NCBI GenBank assembly: GCA_002162095.1
Contig: CP021424.1
Span: 372,001-436,000, forward strand
DNA length: 64,000 nt
Reading direction: 5' to 3'
Source: Armatimonadetes bacterium Uphvl-Ar2
GTDB taxonomy: Bacteria > Armatimonadota > Fimbriimonadia > Fimbriimonadales > Fimbriimonadaceae
Shown: positions 17,370 through 39,033 of the stretch, piece after piece
Layout of the letters: every line of letters starts with the position of its first letter
How positions within the stretch are numbered: position 1 is the stretch's first letter
The notes under the pieces: model-generated
What the model was told of the DNA's origin: nothing
Databases searched by the model: none
The model's input: only the letters and a program-made list of their open reading frames with translations
Made by a program: the position numbers and the translations under genes

Positions 17370-18425
17370 TTATGAGCTAGCCGCCGCCCTTTCCCGAGCC
17401 ACCTTAAGGGACTCAGTGACTTCGGCCAAGAGTTCACGCGACACATTCTGCTCCTTGATCATCTTTACGCACCGCTCTAGTGCCTTCACGGCGCCCTCAG
17501 GGTTCTCACACTCCATCAAGGCGAGGCCCGCAATGTAGAGGCCGAGCGGATCGATTTCACCTGTGTCGCTGGCAATACGCGCCACGATCTGGCCGATCAT
17601 GGCCTTGTTGGCTCCTGGCGCCTGGACCGCATTGAGGCAAAAGAAAGCCAAGTTCGTGCGTCCTTCGCGGCCCAGCTCAAACAATTCGTTCACAGTGCGC
17701 CGGAATCTCAGCGGTTCAGCGTCGATGTAAAGTTCGAGAAGCGTTGACTTGCGTTGGATGTTGAGTTCGGTATCGCCTCCGCTGTCGGCACTCTCAATCT
17801 GGGATCGGCCAGCTTCACGATCACCGCTTCGATAAAGTTCTGCCCCCCGTTTCACCACGGCCATAAAGGCATCGAACTTGGCCGTCCGTGCGCGTTCCGC
17901 CGCGAAGGCAGTCTGGGCAGTAGCCAAGTCAAAGGTTCCTCTGACGATTTGCTCCAAGGGTTCATCCATGCTCATCGGATGGCCAATCCATTGAACAACT
18001 CCGTCATTGAGAATAAAGGTCGCCGGAATACCACGTTGGTCTGCGGCCTTCATCCAGGTTTCCGCCATGGTCATTCCTTCATCGAGGGCCACGTTGTAGC
18101 TCATCCGGTCGCCTTGGCCCTCCACAAACTTCTTAACCAAACCGGCAATATCATCGCCTTGTTCCCAAACGCTGACCCCAATCACCGTGACCTTGCCCTC
18201 GTACTTCTTTGCCAGTGAGGAGATGTGAGGCATGCTTTGGATACAAGGGCTGCACCAGGTCGCCCAGAACTCGATGACGAACACGCCCTTCGAAAGGTCG
18301 GTGACAGCCTTACCCTTCACAAACTCGGCCACTCTGAGCGGCGGTGCCGGTTCACCCGGACCTAGGCCTTGAGCCGAGGACAACGCTGCCATCAATGCAA
18401 GAGCGGATGCGATCACTGCACGCAT
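17370..18425 (-). CDS. Secreted TlpA-like thioredoxin with C-terminal repeat domain
   Basis: 351 residues: signal peptide (cut after about residue 18), a TlpA/AhpC-TSA redox domain with WATWCSPC (Cys58, Cys61) and a cis-proline-type IPATF, then a helical C-terminal half (about 180-351) whose DPLGLYIAGLALMECENPEGAVKAL pattern resembles TPR helices. Expected to act outside the cytoplasmic membrane as a disulfide reductase or cytochrome/cell-envelope thiol factor; no partner is encoded nearby. ATG 18425 lies six bases after TATAAT. It has the same length and layout as the gene at 18557-19612. Confidence 0.88.
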   Translation of the reverse strand: MRAVIASALALMAALSSAQGLGPGEPAPPLRVAEFVKGKAVTDLSKGVFVIEFWATWCSPCIQSMPHISSLAKKYEGKVTVIGVSVWEQGDDIAGLVKKFVEGQGDRMSYNVALDEGMTMAETWMKAADQRGIPATFILNDGVVQWIGHPMSMDEPLEQIVRGTFDLATAQTAFAAERARTAKFDAFMAVVKRGAELYRSGDREAGRSQIESADSGGDTELNIQRKSTLLELYIDAEPLRFRRTVNELFELGREGRTNLAFFCLNAVQAPGANKAMIGQIVARIASDTGEIDPLGLYIAGLALMECENPEGAVKALERCVKMIKEQNVSRELLAEVTESLKVARERAAASS

Positions 18426-18431
18426 ATCCAC

Positions 18432-18437
18432 ATTATA
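18432..18437 (-). promoter_or_regulatory. -10 box for the middle TlpA-like gene
   Basis: TATAAT on the minus strand, six bases before ATG 18425. The collapsed neighbour has TGTAAT in the same place (17243-17248), an altered copy of the same promoter. Confidence 0.6.
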
Positions 18438-18507
18438 AGGGGCAAAGGCCACCTTATTTGACCTATGGAAATTGATAAACGTGAATATAGTGCCCCTGGA
18501 ACATGAT

Positions 18508-18538
18508 AGTGCCCCGACCCAAATTGGGCCGAGGCACT
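18508..18538 (-). terminator. Hairpin after the upstream TlpA-like gene
   Basis: AGTGCC and GGCACT arms at the outer ends (18508-18513, 18533-18538) with further pairing inside; no U-tract follows, so this may be an RNA-stabilising hairpin instead. Confidence 0.4.
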
Positions 18539-18556
18539 TCTCTGACGGTCAGGCAC

Positions 18557-19612
18557 TTACCAAGCGGGCTTGACTTTGCTACGAGCGTCGTCAGCGGCTT
18601 TGTTCAAGTCCGTGACGAAGGCGGGCGGATACTCACCAGCGGCCGCATAGCCTTGAGCTCGCTCGAAAGACCGTAATGCCGCTTCGGCGTTCTCGCTCGC
18701 CACCAGCGCCATGCCCGCGTAGTACAGCGCAATCGCATTGGTCTCGCTGCTTTCTCCGGCAATGCGCTCAGCGATCTTGCCCAGCAGCGCCTTGTTGCTG
18801 TTGGCTTGGCGGGAAGTGTTGTAGCAGAAGAAGGCGAGGTTCAGGCGAGCCGAACCACCTTCGGCAAACATTTCGTTGGCCAGACGGCGGAAACGCAGCG
18901 GCTCGGAGTTCACATACAGGCCCAGCAATGTCATGTTGCGTTGCAGGTTCAGGCCCGCATCGCCGCCACTATCGGCGTCCATGATCTGCGTGCGACCAGC
19001 TTCCATGTTGCCCTCGCGGTAGGCCTTCGCCCCGGCTTGGACAGCCCCCATAAAGGCAGCCATCTTGGCTTCGGCTTCCATTTCGGCCTTAAAGGCGGCC
19101 TTGGAGGCTTCGAGATCGAACGTACCCGCCACGACTTGCGCCAGGGGCTCATCCATGGTCATCGGGTGACCGATCCACTGCACCACGCCATCCTTGATGA
19201 TGAACGCGGCGGGGATGCCGTTTTGACCGGCGGCCTGCATCCAGGTTTCAGCCATGGTCATGCCTTCATCGCGAGCCACGTTGTAGCTCATCTTGTCGCC
19301 CTGGCCGTCCACAAACTTCTTGACCATGCCCGCAATGTCGTCGCCGCGCTCCCACACGCTCACGCCCACCACGGTGACCTTGCCTTGGTGCTTCTTGGCA
19401 AGCTCGGAGATGTGCGGAATGCTGACAATACACGGTCCGCACCAGGTCGCCCAGAACTCGACCACGAACACTCCCTTCGAGAGATCCGTGACGGTCTGAC
19501 CCTTCACAAATTCAGCAACTTTGATCGGCGGAGCTTGAACGCCCGGGCCGAGGCTCTGAGCCGATGAAAACGCTGCCAACAAGGCAACTGCGGATGCAAT
19601 TACGCCACGCAT
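18557..19612 (-). CDS. Secreted TlpA-like thioredoxin with C-terminal repeat domain (paralogue)
   Basis: 351 residues, same architecture as the neighbouring copy: signal peptide ending near SSAQS, redox domain with WATWCGPC, the motif GVSVWERGDDIAGMVKKF, IPAAFIIKDG, and a helical C-terminal half with ALYYAGMALVASENAEAALRSF. CATAAT ends six bases before ATG 19612, again without a ribosome site. WCGPC here against WCSPC in the neighbour suggests different redox potentials. The first gene of the array in the direction of transcription. Confidence 0.88.
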   Translation of the reverse strand: MRGVIASAVALLAAFSSAQSLGPGVQAPPIKVAEFVKGQTVTDLSKGVFVVEFWATWCGPCIVSIPHISELAKKHQGKVTVVGVSVWERGDDIAGMVKKFVDGQGDKMSYNVARDEGMTMAETWMQAAGQNGIPAAFIIKDGVVQWIGHPMTMDEPLAQVVAGTFDLEASKAAFKAEMEAEAKMAAFMGAVQAGAKAYREGNMEAGRTQIMDADSGGDAGLNLQRNMTLLGLYVNSEPLRFRRLANEMFAEGGSARLNLAFFCYNTSRQANSNKALLGKIAERIAGESSETNAIALYYAGMALVASENAEAALRSFERAQGYAAAGEYPPAFVTDLNKAADDARSKVKPAW

Positions 19613-26958: not shown

Positions 26959-28590
26959 ATGAAAAAGTTATTGATCAGCGCGCTGGCGACTCTTGGGGTC
27001 GCGAGTGCCTTCGGGATTCAAGGATCGTACGTCGCGGACGAGATTTACGTCAAGTTCGCCAACTACGCCAACGGTCGTCCGCTCAGCCCGACGATGAAGA
27101 AGTTCATCCTGAGCAAGGTAGGCGCCCAAGAAACGGCTTTCTATCCGCAGATCGGGTGGAGCCGCGTCAAGCTCAACGCCCGCGGCAACGTGGAAGCCGC
27201 CGTGGCGACTCTGGATAAGGAACGCTACGTACGCGACGCCGAGCCGGTGTTCATTCGCGAATTCAACGCGACGCCCAACGACCCGCTCTACGTGAACCAG
27301 AAGTGGCTCCGCCCCATCAACGTCGCGCCGGCTTGGGACCTGTTCAAGGGTTCTGACCAAGTGATCGTGGGCATCCTCGACTCCGGTACGGAACTGGACC
27401 ACCCGGACTTGGAAAACAAGCTCGTGCCGGGCGAAGACATGGTGGACCTGGACGGTGACCCGTCGGACACCAACGGCCACGGGACCGGTTCGGCCGGGAT
27501 GGCCGCCGCTGACACCGACAATGGTATCGGCGTTGCCGCTCCGGGTTGGAACACCCTGCTCATGCCGATCCGCGTCGGTGACTTTGGCATCACCCACTCC
27601 GTCGAGGGCATCCTTTATGCTGCCGATGCCGGCTGCGAAATCATCAACATGTCCTATGGTGGCGGTTTCCGCCAACAAGCCGAGCAAGACGCCATCAACT
27701 ATGCCTATGCACGGAATGTCATTCCCATCGCCTCGGCCGGGAACAGCAACTTAAAGGACGTACGATTCTATCCGGCCGGTCTGGATAACGTGGTCTCCGT
27801 TGGCGCCAGCGATGACTTTGACAAGCGCGCTGACTTCTCCAACTACGGTGACTGGGTGGACATTGCCGCGCCGGGCGTGAATACACTCACGACGGCCATT
27901 GGTAAGAAATACGGTGACTTCGGTGGCACTTCAGCCGCCGGCCCGGCCGCCGCCGGTGTGGCCTCGTTGGTGCGTGGCTTCGCTCCGTCGGGCACCACCA
28001 ACACCCAAGTCATTGATTGGGTGAAGCAAGGCTGCGATGACATCGGAGACTGGATCATGCATGGCCGCGTGAACGCTCTGCGCTCCCTGCAACTGGTGCC
28101 GAAGTTTGAAGATCGTGACTACGCCATCGTCGGCATGGAAATGCTGTTCGGGACCAACACGGCGGGCACGGCTTCGGACCTCACCAACCTGGATAGCAGC
28201 GTGGCCATGTTTGCCGCCGCCAAGCAGCAAACCATGCGCAGTCCGGCGACCTTCACCGCTCTCGACTTTGACGTCAGCGCGGACGCCAGCCAAATCGACG
28301 AACTCAAGGTGACGCTGAACGCGTTCGTGAACGCCAACCGCGTCACGCAGATGATCTACGTTTGGGATCCGAGCCTGAACCGATGGCGCTTCGTCCGGGC
28401 CTTCCCGGTCAGCACCCTCTCGGCCAGCGTGGACAACGAAGCCAAGATCAGCAACGCGCAGCGCTACATTGATGGCAACGGCCACATCCGCATTGGCGTG
28501 CGGGCGTTCCAGCCGTTCGGTTCGGTCAACGAGTCCTTCAACTTCGTGATCGACCGCACCATGATCAGCGCCAAGCTGCTCATCAACTAA
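26959..28590 (+). CDS. Secreted subtilisin-family serine protease, copy 1
   Basis: 543 residues: signal peptide (MKKLLISALATLGVASAFG), a propeptide-like region to about 110, the S8 catalytic domain (about 115-350) and a C-terminal beta domain (about 390-543). The triad is Asp141 (GILDSG), His174 (NGHGTG) and Ser325, with oxyanion Asn262 (SAGNSN). The serine motif reads GTSAAGP instead of the usual GTSMSSP. The start is at ATG 26959, with AAAGG upstream; a TTGACA at 26882-26887 may belong to its promoter. Copy 2 follows 164 bp downstream. Confidence 0.93.
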   Translation: MKKLLISALATLGVASAFGIQGSYVADEIYVKFANYANGRPLSPTMKKFILSKVGAQETAFYPQIGWSRVKLNARGNVEAAVATLDKERYVRDAEPVFIREFNATPNDPLYVNQKWLRPINVAPAWDLFKGSDQVIVGILDSGTELDHPDLENKLVPGEDMVDLDGDPSDTNGHGTGSAGMAAADTDNGIGVAAPGWNTLLMPIRVGDFGITHSVEGILYAADAGCEIINMSYGGGFRQQAEQDAINYAYARNVIPIASAGNSNLKDVRFYPAGLDNVVSVGASDDFDKRADFSNYGDWVDIAAPGVNTLTTAIGKKYGDFGGTSAAGPAAAGVASLVRGFAPSGTTNTQVIDWVKQGCDDIGDWIMHGRVNALRSLQLVPKFEDRDYAIVGMEMLFGTNTAGTASDLTNLDSSVAMFAAAKQQTMRSPATFTALDFDVSADASQIDELKVTLNAFVNANRVTQMIYVWDPSLNRWRFVRAFPVSTLSASVDNEAKISNAQRYIDGNGHIRIGVRAFQPFGSVNESFNFVIDRTMISAKLLIN

Positions 28591-28614
28591 ACCGACCTGC
28601 CACTTAGGCACCTT

Positions 28615-28655
28615 CCCCCGGCTTGCCGCGATACGCAAGCTGGGGGTTTTCGTTT
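28615..28655 (+). terminator. Terminator after protease copy 1
   Basis: CCCCCGGCTTG (28615-28625) pairs with CAAGCTGGGGG (28636-28646, one G-T pair), followed by TTTTCGTTT. Confidence 0.88.
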
Positions 28656-28754
28656 GCCTCCGCGCGCTGCCGTTTTGGGGCAGGTTCTTGGTATGATGGG
28701 GGCATTGGGTCCTTTGTGCGTGCACGCGGCCCATCTGGTTTAGGGATCACTCAC

Positions 28755-30389
28755 ATGAAGAATCTGCTTTTGACCGCTATGCTCACCTTGGGCGTGGCCA
28801 GCGCCTTTGGCCTGCAAGGAAGCTACGTCGAAGACGAAATCTACATCAAGTTCGCCAATTACGCGAACGGGCGACCGCTCAGCGGCACGATGAAGAAGTT
28901 CATCCTCAGCAAGGTCGGCGCCCAAGAAATGGCCATCTATCCGCAAATCGGATGGAGCCGCGTGAAGCTCAATGCGCGTGGCAAGGTGGAAGCCGCCGTG
29001 GCCACCCTGGAGAAGGAGCGCTACGTGCGCGACGCCGAGCCGGTGTTTATGCGCCAAGTCGTGGCCACGCCCAACGACCCGCTGTTCGCCCAGCAGAAGT
29101 GGCTCCGGCCCATCCAAGCTCAAGCGGCTTGGGATCTGTTTAAGGGCAACGATAGCGTGGTCGTTGGCATCCTCGATACGGGTGTGCAACTGGACCACCC
29201 GGACCTGGAGAACAAACTCGTCCCGGGTGAAGACCTCGTGACGCTGGACGGTGACCCCTCCGACGACAACGGTCACGGCACCCTGGTGGCGGGCCTTGTG
29301 GGCGCGGATACCGACAACGGTATCGGCGTGGCCGGCACGGACTGGAACGCCCTGCTCATGCCACTCAAGATCAATATGGGGGGCGGAATCTCGCACTCCG
29401 TCGAGGGCATTCTCTACGCCGCCGATAACGGTTGCCAAGTCATCAACATGTCTTATCGGGGCTTCTTCCGCAGCCAAGTGGAGCAAGACGCCATCAACTA
29501 CGCCTTTGCGCGCCAGGTCATTCCGGTGGCGGCCGCGGGTAACGATAGCCTGAAGGACACCGTGGCCTACCCGGCTGGTCTAGATAACGTGCTCTCCGTT
29601 GCCGCCAGCGACGACAACGACAACCAAGCTGGTTTCACCAACTACGGCGACTGGGTTGACGTCGCAGCTCCTGGGGTGGCGACGCTCTGCACTGCGCTTG
29701 GTTCCGGCTACGGCAGCCCCAGCGGCACCTCGATGTCCAGCCCGGTCACGGCTGGGGTCGCCAGCCTGGTGCTGGGTTACTCGCCCACGGGCACGACCAA
29801 CGCCCAGGTCATTGACTACATCAAGCGCGGCGCGGACAACATCGGCGACTTTATCAAGCATGGTCGCGTCAATGCCCTCAAGTCGCTGCAACTGGTGCCG
29901 AAGTTCCAAGATCGCAACTACGGCATTGTGGGCATGGAAACCCTGATGGGCACTCACACGGCGGGCGCCGGCCCCGACCTTTCCACATTGGATAGCAGCG
30001 TGGCGATGTTCGCGGCAACCAAGCAGCAGACCATGCGCAGCCCGGCGGCTTTCACGGCTCTCACCTACGACGTGAGCGCTGATGCCAGCCAGATCGAAGA
30101 GCTGAAGGTCACCCTGAACGCCTTCGTGAATGCCAACCGCGTGACGCAAATGATCTACGTTTGGGATCCGAGCCTGAACCGATGGCGCTTCCTCCGGGCC
30201 TTCCCGGTCAGCACCCTCTCGGCCAGCGTGGACAACGAAGCCAAGATCAGCAATGCGGCCCGCTACATTGACGGCAACGGCCACATCAAGATCGGGATTC
30301 GCGCCTTCCAGCCGTTCGGCTCGGCGAACGAAACGTTCAACTACGTGATGGACCGCGTCGGCATCTCCGCCAAGCTCCTCATCCCGTAA
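28755..30389 (+). CDS. Secreted subtilisin-family serine protease, copy 2
   Basis: 544 residues with the same layout as copy 1, including the propeptide-like segment YVEDEIYIKFANYANGRPLS. The triad is standard: Asp in GILDTG, His in NGHGTLVAG, Ser in GTSMSSPVTAG, plus AAAGND. The C-terminal domain is the best conserved part between copies, and a stretch of about 100 bp there is nearly identical at the DNA level. TGGTATGATGG at 28688-28698 looks like an extended -10 with a leader of about 60 nt; TAGGGA precedes ATG 28755. Each copy has its own terminator, so they are separate transcription units. Confidence 0.94.
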   Translation: MKNLLLTAMLTLGVASAFGLQGSYVEDEIYIKFANYANGRPLSGTMKKFILSKVGAQEMAIYPQIGWSRVKLNARGKVEAAVATLEKERYVRDAEPVFMRQVVATPNDPLFAQQKWLRPIQAQAAWDLFKGNDSVVVGILDTGVQLDHPDLENKLVPGEDLVTLDGDPSDDNGHGTLVAGLVGADTDNGIGVAGTDWNALLMPLKINMGGGISHSVEGILYAADNGCQVINMSYRGFFRSQVEQDAINYAFARQVIPVAAAGNDSLKDTVAYPAGLDNVLSVAASDDNDNQAGFTNYGDWVDVAAPGVATLCTALGSGYGSPSGTSMSSPVTAGVASLVLGYSPTGTTNAQVIDYIKRGADNIGDFIKHGRVNALKSLQLVPKFQDRNYGIVGMETLMGTHTAGAGPDLSTLDSSVAMFAATKQQTMRSPAAFTALTYDVSADASQIEELKVTLNAFVNANRVTQMIYVWDPSLNRWRFLRAFPVSTLSASVDNEAKISNAARYIDGNGHIKIGIRAFQPFGSANETFNYVMDRVGISAKLLIP

Positions 30390-31360: not shown

Positions 31361-31380
31361 GTCCTCTTACGTTAAGTCCT
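31351..31380. repeat. 15-bp tandem duplication over two convergent stop codons
   Basis: CTTACGTTAAGTCCT occurs twice in direct succession (31351-31365, 31366-31380). It duplicates, in frame, the last codons and the TAA stops of both prpB (plus) and ftsK (minus). Confidence 0.95.
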
Positions 31381-33646
31381 CTTCGTCGTCGCGGAACATC
31401 GCATCGTCGGGCATCGGCGTCATGTATTCGTCGTTGCCCAGCATGGCCTGCACCTGCACTTCGTCCACCAGAATCTCGCGGGGGCGCGAGCCATCCTTCG
31501 GGCCGACAATGCCGCGCTCTTCCATAGCATCCAGCAGGCGCGAGGCGCGCTGGAATCCCACCCGGAACTTACGCTGCAGCATGCTCGTGCTGGCGGCATT
31601 GCGCTCCACCACCCAGGTCACGGCTTCGGCCCACAGCGGATCGTCATCCATGCCCCCGCCGCCGCCGGCTTCGCCGCCGCGTTCGCTCCCGCCTTCGGCC
31701 ACCGCAATGGGTTCCAGCACGTAGCGCGGGCCTTCCTGCTCGCGCCAGTGGCGGCACACCGCCGAAATCTCGCTCTCGCTAACGTAGCAGCCCTGAATGC
31801 GCATCGGCTTATGGGCGCCAATGGGGCGGAACAACATGTCGCCACGCCCAATCAGGTCTTCGGCACCGCTGCTATCCAAAATCGTGCGGCTGTCAATGGC
31901 GCTGCTCACCGCAAAGGCAATGCGCGAGGGGATATTGGCCTTGATGAGGCCGGTAATCACGTCCACGCTGGGGCGCTGGGTGGCAATGACCATGTGGATG
32001 CCGGTGGCGCGGGCCAACTGGCCAAGACGGCAAATGCTGGCTTCGACTTCGTTGGCCACCTGCATCATCAGGTCGGCCAGCTCGTCAATCACCAGCACGA
32101 TGTACGGCAAGCGATCCTGATAGGTGGGGGCCTTCTCGTTCCAGCCGTCAATATTACGCACGCCGGCTTCCTTGAACTGCAGGTAGCGGCGCTCCATCTC
32201 GCGCACCAAGGCGCGCAGCACCCCGGCCGCCTCCTTCACGTCGGTCACCACCGGGCACATGAGATGCGGCAGCCCGTCAAACAGGCTCAGTTCCACCTGC
32301 TTGGGGTCAATCAGCACCAGCCGGCAATCCTTGGGCGTATTGCGCAAGATGAGCGACATGATGAGCGTGGCGAGCCCGATGGACTTCCCGCTATTGGTGG
32401 CCCCGCCCACCAGCATGTGCGGCATGCGGGTGAGGTCGGCATAGAGCGGCGCCCCGGCCACGTCCTTGCCCAGTGCCACCAAGAGCTTCTTCTCCTGGTC
32501 GTGAAACTCCAGGCTCTCGCACATCTCGCGCAGGGTCACGGGCTGGCGATTCTTGTTGGGCACCTCGATGCCGATGGCGTTCTTGCCGGGGATGGGGGCC
32601 TCCACGCGAATGCTGGGGGCGGCCAGGCTCATCGCCAGGTTGTCGCTCAGGTTCGTCACGCGATTGACGCGGATGCCGGGGCCGACGCCGAGTTCGTAGC
32701 GGGTGACCGTCGGGCCGGTGGCCACCTCCATCACCTGCGCGTCCACCCCGAATTGCTCCAGGGTGCTTTCCAGCACTTCGATGTTGCGCTGGACTTCCTT
32801 GGGGTCGCGCTTGGCCTTGGCCGAGGGCTCCGTCAGCAGGCCCATGCTGGGTAGCACGTAGCCTTCCTTGGGCATGGGGGCTTCGTCCGCCAGCTTGGGC
32901 AGCGCATCGGCGTCCTGCGGGGCGGGCACCGGGCGGCGGGCACGCGACGGGCGCGGGGCCTCTTCCTCTTCGTCCATCGCTTCGGGGATGGGGCGACGCG
33001 GGCGGGCGGTGGTTTCGATCGGCAATTCTGCCGTACGCCGGCGGCGCGGGGCTTCGATGGGTTCGTCTTCTTCGGCTTCCTCCGGCTCAGGGCGCGGTCG
33101 CATGAGCAAATCCTTCACCGGGAGGTCCACGACCAAGAGCAGACCGATAAGGCAAAGCGTAACCAATGCCACGGTGCCCCCTTGGCCGAACAAAGTGCTA
33201 AACATCCACCCGCCGATGGCGCCGACATAGCCGCCGGTGGTGGTGGTGGCTTCGGGGTCGAAGTAGTCACCCTGGATCGGGCGAGCCATCAGCCCGGTGA
33301 CGCCCACCAACAGGATGCCAAGCCCCCAGGCCAGGCGTGGGTGAGCCACATGGGTTTTGCCGAGGATGAGGCGGATACCGCCAATCACCAGCAGGGCGGG
33401 CACCACCCAAGCCACGGGGCCGAGCATCACACGCAGGCCACCCGCCAGAGTATCGCCAAGAATGCCGGAAGAACCTAAACCGAGTGCGATGCCGACGATG
33501 ACGCCGACCCCCACCATGCCGAGTCCCCAGGCATCAATCGAGCGGGGAGATGGTGCGGGTGCCGCCGGGGCCATCTTGACGGCCGCCTTTGTGGGTGTTC
33601 CCTTCCGTGTTGGACCTTTTCGCAAAACCTGCCCTTCCTTGGGCAT
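31367..33646 (-). CDS. ftsK: DNA translocase FtsK/SpoIIIE
   Basis: 759-residue ATP-driven chromosome pump acting at the division septum. Four hydrophobic helices (about 38-180) anchor it, a charged Pro/Glu/Arg-rich linker follows, and the motor shows VGGATNSGKS (P-loop near 415) and LVIDELADLMM, with IATQRPSVDVITGLIKANIPSRIAF. The winged-helix gamma domain that reads polar motifs is present near the C terminus (AASTSMLQRKFRVGFQRASRLLDAME region). It has its own -10 box, so it is separate from the rodA operon just upstream. Confidence 0.96.
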   Translation of the reverse strand: MPKEGQVLRKGPTRKGTPTKAAVKMAPAAPAPSPRSIDAWGLGMVGVGVIVGIALGLGSSGILGDTLAGGLRVMLGPVAWVVPALLVIGGIRLILGKTHVAHPRLAWGLGILLVGVTGLMARPIQGDYFDPEATTTTGGYVGAIGGWMFSTLFGQGGTVALVTLCLIGLLLVVDLPVKDLLMRPRPEPEEAEEDEPIEAPRRRRTAELPIETTARPRRPIPEAMDEEEEAPRPSRARRPVPAPQDADALPKLADEAPMPKEGYVLPSMGLLTEPSAKAKRDPKEVQRNIEVLESTLEQFGVDAQVMEVATGPTVTRYELGVGPGIRVNRVTNLSDNLAMSLAAPSIRVEAPIPGKNAIGIEVPNKNRQPVTLREMCESLEFHDQEKKLLVALGKDVAGAPLYADLTRMPHMLVGGATNSGKSIGLATLIMSLILRNTPKDCRLVLIDPKQVELSLFDGLPHLMCPVVTDVKEAAGVLRALVREMERRYLQFKEAGVRNIDGWNEKAPTYQDRLPYIVLVIDELADLMMQVANEVEASICRLGQLARATGIHMVIATQRPSVDVITGLIKANIPSRIAFAVSSAIDSRTILDSSGAEDLIGRGDMLFRPIGAHKPMRIQGCYVSESEISAVCRHWREQEGPRYVLEPIAVAEGGSERGGEAGGGGGMDDDPLWAEAVTWVVERNAASTSMLQRKFRVGFQRASRLLDAMEERGIVGPKDGSRPREILVDEVQVQAMLGNDEYMTPMPDDAMFRDDEEDLT

Positions 33647-33680: not shown

Positions 33681-34772
33681 TTAACGAACCGCCATCACCA
33701 AGCCCAGCATAGCCATGCAGATGATGAGCGCGGTGCCCCCGTAGCTCATGAGCGGCAGCCACAAGCCGACCACGGGCGTGACGCCAATGACCATGCCAAT
33801 ATTGGCAATGGTGTGGAAGGCCAACACCCCCAAAACCCCCATGGCCACGTTCTTGGCCATCGGGCTCTGCGCCGACCGGGCGATCAGCAGCATGGTGAAG
33901 AACATGCCCAAGAAGGCGATGAGCACCAAGGCCGCCCCGAACAAGCCAAACTGCTCGCCCACCGCGCTATAGATAAAGTCCGTATCTTGGAACGGCACAT
34001 ATCCGCCCTTCGTTTGCTCTCCGCGCAGGAAGCCCTCGCCCAAGACACCCCCGTTGGCAAAGGCGATCGCGGCTTGGGTTTGTTGATACTTGTTGCCCCC
34101 TTCATCGGGGTTCACCATGGCCAGTAGGCGATCCTTTTGATAGCCCAACAGCAAGGTACTGGCCACCATTACAAGCCCCACAAAGATCAGCACAATGTGG
34201 CGCCACTTGGCCCCAGCCGCTACCGTGATGACCGCCCAGATAACCATGATGGAGGTCGCCCCGCCCAGGTGGGGTTGTAAGAAGATCAGCGCCGCCACGG
34301 GCAGGGTGTGCGCCAGGGAGCCCAGCACACTGGAGAGTTGCTTGGGGTCTCGATCCGCCCGCGCCCAGTACGCCGAGAGCGTCAAGATAAAGAGAATTTT
34401 GGCCATCTCAGATGGCTGAAATTGAAGTGGCCCAATGTCAATCCAGCGCGTGGCCCCGTTGCGTTCTTCCCCCATAAAAAAGATCGAAACGAGGTTGAGC
34501 AGGTTGATGCCGTAGAGCACCGGCACAAACTGCGGAATCGCGTCCAGCCGCAACCGCCGGCAACCCACAAAGGCCACCGTCCCCACGGCCAAGAAGAGGA
34601 GCTGTTTGCTGAAGACCTGGTCGCCACGATGATGCTGGATGGCAAACAGGCAAACCAGACCAAACAGCAGTACGACAAAAGCAAAGCCCATCACCCAGCG
34701 CCGCAACGGCCGAGGGCCATCCTCTGTTCCCAGAGTGCCTTGGCGCATGCCGGGCAGGGCGGTGGTGCTCAT
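33681..34772 (-). CDS. rodA: SEDS glycosyltransferase RodA
   Basis: 363-residue, ten-helix peptidoglycan polymerase that works with a class B PBP in cell elongation. Family motifs are GATRWIDIGPLQFQPSEMAK, GEGFLRGEQTKGGYVPFQDTDFI followed by GEQFGLFG, and the C-terminal IGMVIGVTPVVGLWLPLMSYGG. No pbp2, mreB or mreC is nearby. Its start overlaps the preceding gene's stop by four bases (ATGA), making it the last gene of a six-gene operon of envelope proteins. FtsW is the alternative, but the motif pattern favours RodA. Confidence 0.92.
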   Translation of the reverse strand: MSTTALPGMRQGTLGTEDGPRPLRRWVMGFAFVVLLFGLVCLFAIQHHRGDQVFSKQLLFLAVGTVAFVGCRRLRLDAIPQFVPVLYGINLLNLVSIFFMGEERNGATRWIDIGPLQFQPSEMAKILFILTLSAYWARADRDPKQLSSVLGSLAHTLPVAALIFLQPHLGGATSIMVIWAVITVAAGAKWRHIVLIFVGLVMVASTLLLGYQKDRLLAMVNPDEGGNKYQQTQAAIAFANGGVLGEGFLRGEQTKGGYVPFQDTDFIYSAVGEQFGLFGAALVLIAFLGMFFTMLLIARSAQSPMAKNVAMGVLGVLAFHTIANIGMVIGVTPVVGLWLPLMSYGGTALIICMAMLGLVMAVR

Positions 34773-35398
34773 GGAGACTTCTTGGCAGCGGGCTCGCGGG
34801 CCGAATCGACCCCTAGTTCACGGCGGACAATGCCGTGGTCGCGGACCAGCCAAAACTTGAGCGTACGCTCGCGGCGGTCCTGGTCGTCCACCTTCATGGT
34901 GAGCTTAATTTCGATGCGCGCGGCATCAAATTGGCCGCCCACGGTGTTAATGCGCTCGGGCGTGGCCTCAATCGTGGCCTCGCCTTCCACTTCGGTGGGG
35001 CCGGTTTTCCATTTCCCCTTCCATTCGCTGGACTTCGGCGCGGCAAACGGCAAGCTCACCAGCGGGATCGGCGGCTCGAAACTTTCGGCGCGCGTGCCCA
35101 TAAAGGCCAGCCCGTCCACGCCCACACGGTAGCGCTCTTCGTCCACTTCTTGCCCGTGCACGATGAACACGAGGCGACGAATGTCACCTTCCTTGATGAA
35201 CTTGGTTTCCACCGGGATGGGGGTGCCGGCCAGCACCAACGTGGCCTCCTTCTCCTTGAACTCTTCAAAGCCGAGCTCTCGACTATCGGTGATGGAAAAG
35301 GCCGCCGGGTCTTGGCCGCTGGCTTGGGGCTGGCACGTGCCTGCGAATGACGCTAAAAACGCCAATACGCCAAAACCAAGTGCCGCCCGTCCGTTCAT
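34769..35398 (-). CDS. Secreted protein, fifth gene of the rodA operon
   Basis: 209 residues, signal peptide with a possible lipid-attachment Cys (FAGTC, a poor lipobox). Family unknown. It shares with its three upstream neighbours a layout of beta-rich segments, a middle motif with prolines before a Leu-Pro-Phe turn and EWKGKWK, and an end segment LVRDHGIV that aligns with VKGLGMV, SPGVGMV and AKGIGLV in the others. It starts 8 bp after the stop of the preceding gene and overlaps rodA by 4 bp. Probable periplasmic or outer-surface protein. Confidence 0.8.
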   Translation of the reverse strand: MNGRAALGFGVLAFLASFAGTCQPQASGQDPAAFSITDSRELGFEEFKEKEATLVLAGTPIPVETKFIKEGDIRRLVFIVHGQEVDEERYRVGVDGLAFMGTRAESFEPPIPLVSLPFAAPKSSEWKGKWKTGPTEVEGEATIEATPERINTVGGQFDAARIEIKLTMKVDDQDRRERTLKFWLVRDHGIVRRELGVDSAREPAAKKSP

Positions 35399-35406
35399 GG
35401 TGTTCT

Positions 35407-36060
35407 TTACGTCGGGCCGGCCTTAAATGCCGTCAGTGTCCTTGATCTTCGGGTCACATCGCGTTCGGTGCGCACCGTTTCTTGCATCGAAACCAGTCCG
35501 ATTCCCTTCGCATAAACCGCCACTTGGGTCACGCGGAGGAGCAGGTCACCCTGGCCGATCTTCATATCCATGGTGATTTCGATGCCGGGATACTCGTTGC
35601 CCAGCACCTTCACCGAGGCCAATCGCTTGGCGGTGCCGTCGAGCACCAGCCGCTCGGTGGTGCCGGACATCGGCACTAAGCCGTCGTAGCCAAACTTTTC
35701 GGTGTCCCCCAGGGGCAGCACCATGATGGGATAGGGCTCGACAATCGGTTCCGAGCGCGAGAGGGCGCCCACTCGAATGTCCTTGTCGCTGACGATGTAG
35801 AACGTGCGACCCATGAAGCCCGAACGCGTGTCGTAAGTGCCGATGGTCGGCAGCATGCGCCCCGGCTCCTCGGAGCCTTCTTTCTTGACTTCGTATTCGC
35901 CCTCGGCGCGGTCTTCCACTTGCAGGTTTAGCCGCTCGGCCGTATCGGTGTACGACCAAGAGGTGCCCTTTTGGAGGGGGAAATAGTCGGTCGCCCGCTC
36001 GGCCGCCGGAGCGGAAACGAGAGCGGACGACAACGACGCAGCGAGGACGAAGGAGATCAT
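35407..36060 (-). CDS. Secreted protein, fourth gene of the rodA operon
   Basis: 217 residues with a signal peptide (MISFVLAASLSSALVSA). The mature N terminus YFPLQKGTSWSY resembles NVFPLKEGNSWTF in the lipoprotein encoded two genes upstream, and YAKGIGLVSMQE near the C terminus is the shared closing motif. Function unknown; the pattern recalls DUF3108/TapB-type beta proteins, which I cannot confirm. Start ATG 36060 overlaps the stop of the preceding gene (ATGA), so a longer in-frame start upstream is unlikely. Confidence 0.82.
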   Translation of the reverse strand: MISFVLAASLSSALVSAPAAERATDYFPLQKGTSWSYTDTAERLNLQVEDRAEGEYEVKKEGSEEPGRMLPTIGTYDTRSGFMGRTFYIVSDKDIRVGALSRSEPIVEPYPIMVLPLGDTEKFGYDGLVPMSGTTERLVLDGTAKRLASVKVLGNEYPGIEITMDMKIGQGDLLLRVTQVAVYAKGIGLVSMQETVRTERDVTRRSRTLTAFKAGPT

Positions 36061-36821
36061 GACTTCGGCAGGATGAGGTTCATCACCATGCGGGCGTTGG
36101 CCTCGTTCGGGTTCGGCATGTCCAGCTTGACCATGCCCAGTCCCTTCACAAGCCAAGACTTCGCTTCACCGGTCACGGTGGAGCCCGCGCCACTGGCCGG
36201 GGTGCTCTTCATCGTGTACTTGTTCACGATGACCAGCGCATCGTATTCCTTGCCGTCCGAAAGCTTGATCTTCTCGATGGCGAGGGCCTCCCCGTTCATT
36301 TCAGCCTTGACTACGGAGCCGTCCGGCATCTTGAGGTCGAAGCTGGAGTTCCACTTCTTGCCCGGGGCCACGTCGCTCGGCAGTTGCAGAGCCGGCTTGG
36401 AAAGCTCGCCGCGACCCACCGATTCGGTGTAGATCCCATCCTTGCGGATGACCACGGTCTCGCTGCCCAGTTGCGCCAGTTCACCGGCACGGACCACGTC
36501 CACGCGGGCTTCACCGTTCTCCACGTTGAGGATGCGGACGCGCTCGGTGCCTTCGCCCTTCTTGTCCTCGCCCCAGTTGGTTTCGAACACCGATTCTCGG
36601 CTGCCCGTCATGCCGTAATATTCGGCCGCGGCGGTCTTGAGTTCAGCCGGAAGCTCGACCGACGCTTCCAGATCCGTGGAAGTGTCCGTCGAGGTGGATG
36701 AAGATTCCTTGCTGGGTTCCTTGGTGCCGGTATCCGTCGCCGGCGCCGGCGTCGAGTTTTGGCATCCCCCGATGAGGAGGCCAAGGGCGATCAAGAGCGT
36801 CCAACTTTGAATGCGCTTCAT
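36057..36821 (-). CDS. Predicted lipoprotein, third gene of the rodA operon
   Basis: 254 residues. Signal peptide ends in lipobox IGGC (acylated Cys near 20), then a Ser/Thr/Glu-rich linker of about 30 residues and a beta-rich domain with GIYTESVGRGELSKPALQLP, then APGKKWNSSFDLKMPDG and the closing WLVKGLGMVKLDM. Together with its three relatives it forms a tandem family. Start and stop both overlap the neighbours by 4 bp. Confidence 0.83.
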   Translation of the reverse strand: MKRIQSWTLLIALGLLIGGCQNSTPAPATDTGTKEPSKESSSTSTDTSTDLEASVELPAELKTAAAEYYGMTGSRESVFETNWGEDKKGEGTERVRILNVENGEARVDVVRAGELAQLGSETVVIRKDGIYTESVGRGELSKPALQLPSDVAPGKKWNSSFDLKMPDGSVVKAEMNGEALAIEKIKLSDGKEYDALVIVNKYTMKSTPASGAGSTVTGEAKSWLVKGLGMVKLDMPNPNEANARMVMNLILPKS

Positions 36822-37876
36822 GACTTCAAATCATAGTCCTTCAGGCGCAGGGTTTGCACGATTCGGATGCCAGAAGGCTGAACGACCACCTGGCGGAATC
36901 GCACCATGCCCACGCCGGGAGACCAAAAGACCGTGCTGGTGCTGGCCACAAACGGGGGAACCGTCGGCAGGCTGGAGGAGAGCGCCGTGGCGGAGTCGCC
37001 GCTCGGGGCTTCCGTGGAGGCACTATCGTTGCTGGAAGATTCGGTCGAAGTTGCTTCTCCGGTCGTACCTTCGGTGCCGCTCGTGCCTTCGGTGCCTTCC
37101 GCTTCACCCGAACCCGAAGCGGGTTCCGTCGGCGTGCCGCTGGCCGCGCTGGTCACGTCCGTCACCCCGGCTTCGCGGAGCTTGGCGAGGGCGGCGCCCA
37201 GCGCTTCCACATCGTCACCCTGAGCCGGGTAAAGCAGAATCGTCTGCGTGCTGAAGGCCGGCAGCGTGCCGCGCTCCGTGTCCACCTGTTGCGGCCCCAG
37301 AGCCGTGTGCCGGACAATCATGCGGCGCACCGGGATGGTGTTGTTATCGGCGCTACCGGCCGGGAGCGGACCCGTGGTCACAAACTCCTGCTCTTCTCCC
37401 TGCTTGAGGGCAAACAAGAGCGAGGGCAGAGCGGGCGAGTAGTTCAGCAAATCACGCGAACCGGCGGTTTGGTAGATCCCTTCCGAGTTCACCATCCAAC
37501 CGCTGCGGTCGGCCTTTTGCTGGCTGGCGGCTTCGGTCAGTTGGCCCGTTTCAGGATCGAGATCGGCCTCGCGGATGACATGGATCTCGGCGCGGGTTTC
37601 GCCGCCGTCCGTCGCGATGCGTTCCACCCGAAGCGTGATGTCCTCGGTGTTGGTCTGGCTCTGGCCGTTGGGAAGCGTTATCGCCACCTGGCTTTCAAAG
37701 GTCCAGGAATTTCCTTCCTTCAACGGGAAAACGTTGGCCTTGTCCACGGACGCGAGGTCAACAGGCTTGACCTCCTCGGCGGGTTTCGGCGTGTATCCGG
37801 AGCTTCGGTTGCCGCATCCGACAAGTCCGAGAGCCACGACAACAAAGAGGGGAGAAGCAAGGCGTGCGATCGTCAT
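36818..37876 (-). CDS. Predicted lipoprotein with low-complexity insert, second gene of the rodA operon
   Basis: 352 residues, lipobox LVGC (Cys near 21). NVFPLKEGNSWTFESQ, then EGIYQTAGSRDLL, and the end motif VFWSPGVGMVRFRQ match the pattern of the other three secreted proteins. Between about 245 and 320 lies a Gly/Ser/Thr/Glu repeat tract (GTEGTSGTEGTTGEATSTES), probably a flexible insert and a hotspot for length change. Four-base overlaps with both neighbours. No known family recognised. Confidence 0.83.
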   Translation of the reverse strand: MTIARLASPLFVVVALGLVGCGNRSSGYTPKPAEEVKPVDLASVDKANVFPLKEGNSWTFESQVAITLPNGQSQTNTEDITLRVERIATDGGETRAEIHVIREADLDPETGQLTEAASQQKADRSGWMVNSEGIYQTAGSRDLLNYSPALPSLLFALKQGEEQEFVTTGPLPAGSADNNTIPVRRMIVRHTALGPQQVDTERGTLPAFSTQTILLYPAQGDDVEALGAALAKLREAGVTDVTSAASGTPTEPASGSGEAEGTEGTSGTEGTTGEATSTESSSNDSASTEAPSGDSATALSSSLPTVPPFVASTSTVFWSPGVGMVRFRQVVVQPSGIRIVQTLRLKDYDLKS

Positions 37877-39033
37877 TTTGATTCCGAGGGTTGTGTAGTT
37901 CGCGTTGATGTCAAACGGTTGATGTCGTCAACCGCGTCGGCGGCCAGTTGTTCCGCGCCAACGCCACGAATGGTAACGCTCTTCTCGGCAAGTTCCGTGC
38001 CAATGCGCGGAGCGGCCAGCGCCACACTGTTCACCATAAACAGCAATTGGAAGCGAGGATGTTCCCGGCTGAACTTCCACAGCCGCAAACGTCCCTCTTC
38101 GGTGAGGTTGAGCCGGATGTCGGTTACCAGCTGGTTGTTGTTGCCCTCATAGGTGGACTTGGAAGCCCCGGTGATCATTTCGTCGTTCACCACCACAAAG
38201 GCGTTTTCCAGCACCCGGTACGGCTTGGCCGTGAGTTCTTTCAGGCGAGTCTCGCTAAACCGGCTGGCCAAAGAAGTGGCCAGGTTTTCCTTTTGGGCCG
38301 GCAGGGGGTTCCCGTCCTTGTCCGTGAGTTCGCCCCGCGTGCGCTTGATCTCCTCGTTGTACGTGGCCTGCATGGCCGCATCGGTGAGGAACTTCTCCGT
38401 GAGGCGGCGCCCCGCGCGGGTGGCAAACTGGCTGTTGAAGGACTCGCGGTAGATCGCATCCACTTTGGTGACCGTGCCGCCCACGTTGTATTCCATCTGG
38501 AACGGAATCTCGATGATGATGCCGTCAATCAAGCGGTCGAGGTCGAGCGTAGGCAACGGTTGCCCATCCAACGTCATCGATAGGGCTCGCTCCAGCTTCG
38601 GCTTCAGATTCGCGTCCCCTTTGAGCGCGCGTTCGATTTGATCCTTCGTCCAGATCTCCGCCTGGGCCGGAAACTCACCTTCATTCACGTCGTTCAGGCT
38701 CATTACGAGCTTGCCCAGGGAATCTCCGTTGCCTTGCAAAGCCCCGAGAAACTCGCGGATGAGGAGCTTCTTCTTGGTGATGACATCGTCTTCGTTCATC
38801 TCCGGGGAGTCGAGGTCCGAGTCGCTGAATTCGGCCAGCTGTGCCACCTGGTTGCTGACGATGATCCCAAATCCCGAGCCCGGATTGACGGCGACGATGT
38901 TGACATGCCCCGGCTTGATGGGGTCCATGGTCAGGTTGCGAAGCTGGTACTCGCCGAAGGCGCGCCAACCCCCGTAGCCCACGCCGACAACGGCGAGAAA
39001 TCCAAGGACCAAGGCAGGCGTTTTCGCTTTCAT
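37873..39033 (-). CDS. Membrane-anchored protein with SecD P1-head-like domain, first gene of the rodA operon
   Basis: 386 residues: one N-terminal membrane helix (about 7-26), a charged central region, and a C-terminal domain (about 280-375) that follows the SecD periplasmic P1 head: a VVNDEMITGASKSTYEG strand, LNLTEEGRLRLWKFSREH, then FMVNSVALAAPRIGTEL and a final helix AEQLAADAVDDINR. The six-helix translocon-associated part of SecD is absent. The operon promoter region with a palindrome lies just upstream. It may help export or fold the four secreted proteins that follow; this is inference. Confidence 0.75.
   Translation of the reverse strand: MKAKTPALVLGFLAVVGVGYGGWRAFGEYQLRNLTMDPIKPGHVNIVAVNPGSGFGIIVSNQVAQLAEFSDSDLDSPEMNEDDVITKKKLLIREFLGALQGNGDSLGKLVMSLNDVNEGEFPAQAEIWTKDQIERALKGDANLKPKLERALSMTLDGQPLPTLDLDRLIDGIIIEIPFQMEYNVGGTVTKVDAIYRESFNSQFATRAGRRLTEKFLTDAAMQATYNEEIKRTRGELTDKDGNPLPAQKENLATSLASRFSETRLKELTAKPYRVLENAFVVVNDEMITGASKSTYEGNNNQLVTDIRLNLTEEGRLRLWKFSREHPRFQLLFMVNSVALAAPRIGTELAEKSVTIRGVGAEQLAADAVDDINRLTSTRTTQPSESK

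Follow-up and report, generated by a model that had tools for sequence, protein, structure and literature searches.

In the group 4 capsule system of E. coli, the lipoprotein GfcB (YmcC), which has a LolA-like fold, binds the periplasmic protein GfcC and, together with it, the outer-membrane barrel GfcD, and the gfc genes overlap by 1-4 bp (PMC8592465). In the Sec machinery, binding of the chaperone SurA has been predicted for the P1 head of SecDF (PMC9987972), and RagB of Bacillus subtilis is an example of an accessory membrane protein of the polymerase RodA (PMC12457691). DUF3108-like proteins are widespread without an assigned function, none for DUF3108 having been found in the open-access literature, and no account combining SecD, a P1 domain and RodA was found there either. 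The row of genes described here offers a concrete set of partners for such proteins, since the DUF3108-like set is fixed, order-specific, and accompanied by a SecD-P1 module, to which one family adds a wall polymerase. All domains in the row belong to known kinds, and no precedent for joining them in an ancient fixed set turned up in the open-access literature; in the first-pass annotation of this DNA, no described system of such composition was known.

The row is located in a window of 64,000 nucleotides (the whole stretch of DNA that was analyzed) within a host genome, probably of the phylum Armatimonadota, that consists of a single contig of 2.63 Mb. Its genes lie head to tail on one strand, in the 5′ to 3′ order secD-P1-like, lipA, lipB, lipC, lipD and rodA, and are listed below with the gene that follows them.

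37873-39033, minus strand: secD-P1-like gene; 386 aa, with an N-terminal membrane anchor, a unique middle region and a C-terminal SecD P1-head domain
36818-37876, minus strand: lipA; 352 aa, predicted lipoprotein of a DUF3108-like/YmcC-type family
36057-36821, minus strand: lipB; 254 aa, predicted lipoprotein of the same family as lipA, modeled with AlphaFold
35407-36060, minus strand: lipC; 217 aa, paralogue predicted to be exported and non-lipidated
34769-35398, minus strand: lipD; 209 aa, paralogue, predicted lipoprotein in orthologues
33681-34772, minus strand: rodA; 363 aa, predicted SEDS peptidoglycan polymerase with a TDF motif
31367-33646, minus strand: ftsK/spoIIIE DNA translocase gene, downstream of rodA

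All six open reading frames of the row that had been annotated earlier were found at these positions, and the operon-like packing was borne out by the junctions read from the sequence, which comprise four ATGA overlaps of 4 bases (37873-37876, 36818-36821, 36057-36060 and 34769-34772) and an 8-bp gap between lipC and lipD (35399-35406). Five of the genes had been described as tightly joined; the overlaps and the gap of less than 10 bp stood, and it was the number that required correction, as all six genes are tightly packed. Because ftsK starts only 34 bp after rodA, it may represent a seventh gene of the row, and a same-strand ftsK was found in 28 of the 56 loci inspected in the window's own family (designated f1; f2, f3 and f5 are other families among the relatives). 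Promoter and terminator scans returned nothing above the shuffled expectation, and no RNA element matching Rfam was found in the stretch examined.

The four middle proteins had been proposed to form one paralogous exported family, on the basis of N-terminal motifs in two of them (FPLKEGNSW in lipA and FPLQKGTSW in lipC) and of closing motifs in all four (PGVGMV in lipA, KGLGMV in lipB, KGIGLV in lipC and RDHGIV in lipD), every one of which is present. Profile-profile comparison upheld this proposal. Profiles built strictly from orthologues at the same position in the row matched one another at 98-99.5% probability, while the control comparison of the lip profiles with the SecD-P1-like profile gave 0.2-2.5%. 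First-stage cross-matches obtained from iterated profiles were dropped, as those profiles could mix families, and the lipA-lipC match held up on repeat comparison. Since the strict orthologue profiles are significantly alike, the quoted motifs are best read as positions of a shared family, and unrelated proteins carrying chance motifs were ruled out by the same matches.

Regarding export signals, the lipobox cysteine was found to be invariant in the orthologues of lipA (25/25) and lipB (26/26) and present in at least 90% of those of lipD, the lipobox of the window's own lipD being atypical (AGTC). The orthologue alignment gave lipC a signal peptide without a lipobox. LipA, LipB and LipD are thereby predicted to be lipoproteins, and LipC to be exported by Sec without a lipid. 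It was also observed that residues ~240-315 of lipA, near the C-terminal third, form an insert rich in Ser, Thr and Glu, which the aligned orthologues of other genera do not have.

The first-pass annotation had also called the family tandemly amplified, and this claim did not survive the phylogenetic analysis. In a maximum-likelihood tree, lipB and lipD each fell into a single clade, and lipA and lipC came close to doing so, the bootstrap support being not fully settled. These clades are shared across families, and the paralogue set was therefore inherited rather than freshly amplified, the four-way split being older than the split between f1 and f5. Recent tandem amplification was ruled out on these grounds.

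Concerning the fold, PF21347 (DUF3108_like) matched 23/26 lipB orthologues at E<=0.01 (best E 4.4e-13) and 8/25 lipA orthologues (best E 9.7e-6); the window's own lipB and lipD scored 16.7 and 15.9 bits, below the cut-off of 27, and the window's lipA and lipC gave no match to this model. Searches with hmmsearch found the YmcC-fold structures 4fvs and 3fzx. The AlphaFold result covers lipB alone among the four paralogues, and its model, with a mean pLDDT of 86 and most of the barrel above 90, matched 3fzx and 4fvs in Foldseek with E 4e-7 to 1e-6, probability 1.00 and a TM-score of 0.45-0.52. The lip family resembles DUF3108/YmcC-fold lipoproteins (PF11306, PF21347), with which it shares orthologue sequence matches, the predicted 3fzx/4fvs fold, and export, often with lipidation. 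However, unlike other DUF3108 proteins, four anciently diverged paralogues are kept in the row together with a secD-P1-like gene, and the members in the window fall below the Pfam cut-off.

The earlier annotation of the first gene as SecD-P1-like was upheld; its product is a SecD P1-head protein that is anchored in the membrane and lacks the motor helices of SecD. PF22599 (P1-head) was detected in 22/26 orthologues at E<=0.01 (best E 1.2e-8), the window's own protein scoring 19.5 bits against a cut-off of 27, and its top 8 Foldseek matches were all SecDF. As in SecD, an N-terminal membrane anchor is combined with a P1-head domain. In contrast to SecD, no transmembrane helices follow the single N-terminal one, the TM2-6 motor and the SecD_SecF_C domain are lacking, the middle region is unique, and no secF partner is found at the row, the true SecD/SecF genes being placed at 2.206-2.208 Mb, away from it.

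A gene-neighborhood check was run, and the arrangement proved to be conserved in relatives. All 56 inspected f1 loci (56/56) were colinear on one strand, with the secD-P1-like gene, two to four paralogues and rodA. The complete set of lipA, lipB, lipC and lipD was found in 29 of them and the set without lipC in 19, while 8 had smaller sets; lipC was not recognized in at least 20/56. The nearest-start gap statistic calculated across these loci is biased towards small gaps and was used only qualitatively. Relatives of the SecD-P1-like protein (E<=1e-30) were present in 80/85 f1 genomes, 7/8 f5 genomes and the sole f3 genome, and none was found at this threshold among the f2 genomes listed. The aligned proteins are mostly just 25-45% identical to that of the window, and despite this the f1 arrangement is conserved beyond chance; the row is genuine and old. 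An ABC exporter pair (an ATPase and a PF16962 permease) was observed directly upstream of the secD-P1-like gene in 39/56 f1 loci and also in f3. This pair is absent from the window's genome, which rules it out as an essential partner.

Outside f1, the association with rodA loosens. The f5 loci with a complete row carried all four paralogues in 5/5 and an adjacent rodA in 0/5; moxR stood directly next to the row in four and another gene in the fifth, rodA was found three genes further on at one of the four moxR loci, and three f5 genomes that were checked had it away from the row. The only f3 genome has the row ~7 kb upstream of mreB, which is followed by two genes at the usual position of mreC/mreD, and mreB also occurs in other genomes of the order that have no full-length secD-P1-like gene.

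The earlier identification of rodA was confirmed. Its product matched PF01098 with E 1.2e-76 and scored 290.5 bits with the RodA model TIGR02210 against 239.4 with the FtsW model; it passed the cut-off of NF037961 and fell below TIGR02210's own of 336.7. The second and last SEDS gene of the genome is taken as FtsW because of its position in the dcw cluster, beside murG. The polymerase of the row can be assigned as RodA, with a normal RodA sequence; its gene is one of two SEDS genes in the genome. Its context differs from the usual one, as it sits with envelope lipoprotein genes and away from the mreB genes. A second MreB-like gene, at 1997016-1997989 of the host contig, is interrupted and reads as two overlapping frames of 99 and 244 aa, through either a frameshift or an assembly error. 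Two reduced f1 genomes of 1.5 Mb (genus g15), possibly reflecting a reduced lifestyle, have retained two SEDS genes, of which one scores as rodA, and in both no secD-P1-like gene was detectable and no match to the lipA profile was found. The set is therefore not needed for RodA to persist. Because moxR mostly replaces rodA in f5 and the reduced genomes keep rodA without a recognizable secD-P1-like gene or lipA-type proteins, the core consists of the SecD-P1-like protein and the paralogues, rodA being a family-level partner and not an obligate one. A role in cell elongation, suggested earlier for the row, is weakened by these observations and by the presence of mreB without a full-length secD-P1-like gene.

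It is tentatively proposed, by analogy, that the products of the row may act as a relay that passes envelope material through the periplasm in the manner of GfcB and LolA, a reading that we hold to be a leading candidate, possible but doubtful. The host likely has an outer membrane, since Omp85/BamA is present in the genome. In such a relay, the anchored P1-like protein would serve as an inner-membrane dock for cargo or client polypeptides, LipC, being soluble, would shuttle the cargo, and the lipidated paralogues would hold or accept it at membrane surfaces, as proposed for GfcB-GfcC-GfcD and LolA/LolB. Lipoprotein, lipid or glycan of the envelope would be what is carried, and in f1 the joining of the row to rodA would tie the supply of this material to side-wall growth. 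The relay is supported by the homology of the paralogues, by the YmcC-type fold and by the lipobox that three of them have and LipC lacks, as well as by the P1-head assignment, the colinearity of the core in f1 and f5 and the old paralogue clades. Against it, a soluble shuttle could not be essential everywhere, given the f1 loci without a recognized lipC. The comparison with the group 4 capsule proteins serves as a works-like model. Both have a YmcC-fold lipoprotein, a periplasmic partner and overlapping genes, whereas the row has four paralogues in place of one and neither an identified GfcD outer-membrane barrel gene nor a GfcC-like protein. In hhalign, a single E. coli GfcB sequence gave 30% with lipB and 0.2% with lipC; this is not significant, and the likeness is therefore one of working and not of membership. 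As for LolA/LolB and LprG, the lip set also includes soluble plus lipidated members, and the lipB model gave weak Foldseek matches to the LolA superfamily, LprG and nitrobindin. However, neither the four window proteins nor the orthologues of lipA and lipB gave a LolA sequence match, and although the structural LolA/LprG matches speak for the relay, their weakness (E 0.02-0.2, with 0.02 for a LolA-superfamily protein) counts against it. The full version of this proposal, in which a SecD-P1 dock without a motor and four specialized DUF3108-like paralogues would be linked to RodA, keeping side-wall growth in step with the supply of the outer envelope, is very improbable; if true, it would be a machine without a described counterpart. 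More generally, the row could shed light on how the outer envelope is supplied in a diderm phylum that has been little studied.

About as likely as the relay is a looser reading, in which the lip paralogues and the SecD-P1-like protein would be co-expressed structural or sensory envelope proteins, rodA would be adjacent through shared expression only, and no dedicated relay would exist. The decoupling of rodA in f5 and in the two reduced genomes favors this reading, as do the DUF3108 proteins that also occur singly in unrelated contexts, such as in Burkholderiales (PMC4364669), and one more weak paralogue match that stands alone, away from the row, in the window's genome. However, the strict order and orientation kept over 56 divergent loci, with two to four different paralogues side by side, suggest joint action.

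A role of the SecD-P1-like protein as a factor devoted to export or assembly is unlikely, though worth weighing; in this reading it would catch the four proteins on their exit from the Sec channel and aid their folding or sorting. For the P1 domain of SecDF, polypeptide binding is assumed and recruitment of a chaperone has been predicted (PMC9987972), the gene comes first in the row, and the full-length form was always found beside the paralogues in the inspected f1, f3 and f5 loci. However, the motor helices are missing and canonical SecD/SecF are present. Moreover, shorter membrane-anchored P1-head proteins occur more widely across the phylum, and no lip-family paralogue was detected beside this short form in the inspected loci, so that the original job of the P1-head protein was probably not lip export. 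In several inspected loci of other lineages, the short P1-head gene adjoins an aminotransferase-like gene, and a class-V aminotransferase gene (PF00266) directly precedes the full-length secD-P1-like gene at the single f3 locus. Some of the short-form loci are also near an enoyl-ACP-reductase-like gene.

More unlikely still is the view that the cluster encodes proteins regulating RodA or the elongation complex directly, much as RagB would in B. subtilis. The constant rodA neighbor in f1, the f3 row close to mreB and the precedent of RagB (PMC12457691) speak for it. Against it, RodA occurs without the set in the two reduced genomes, the set without an adjacent rodA in f5 and, elsewhere in the order, MreB without the full-length set, and the persistence of rodA without the set lowers RodA regulation as the main function.

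Two further pairs of genes were observed in the window. At 26959-30389, two adjacent genes have nearly identical N-termini, the second encoding a subtilase-family (S8) protease, and at 17370-19507, on the minus strand, two adjacent thioredoxin-like genes have closely similar N-termini in translation.
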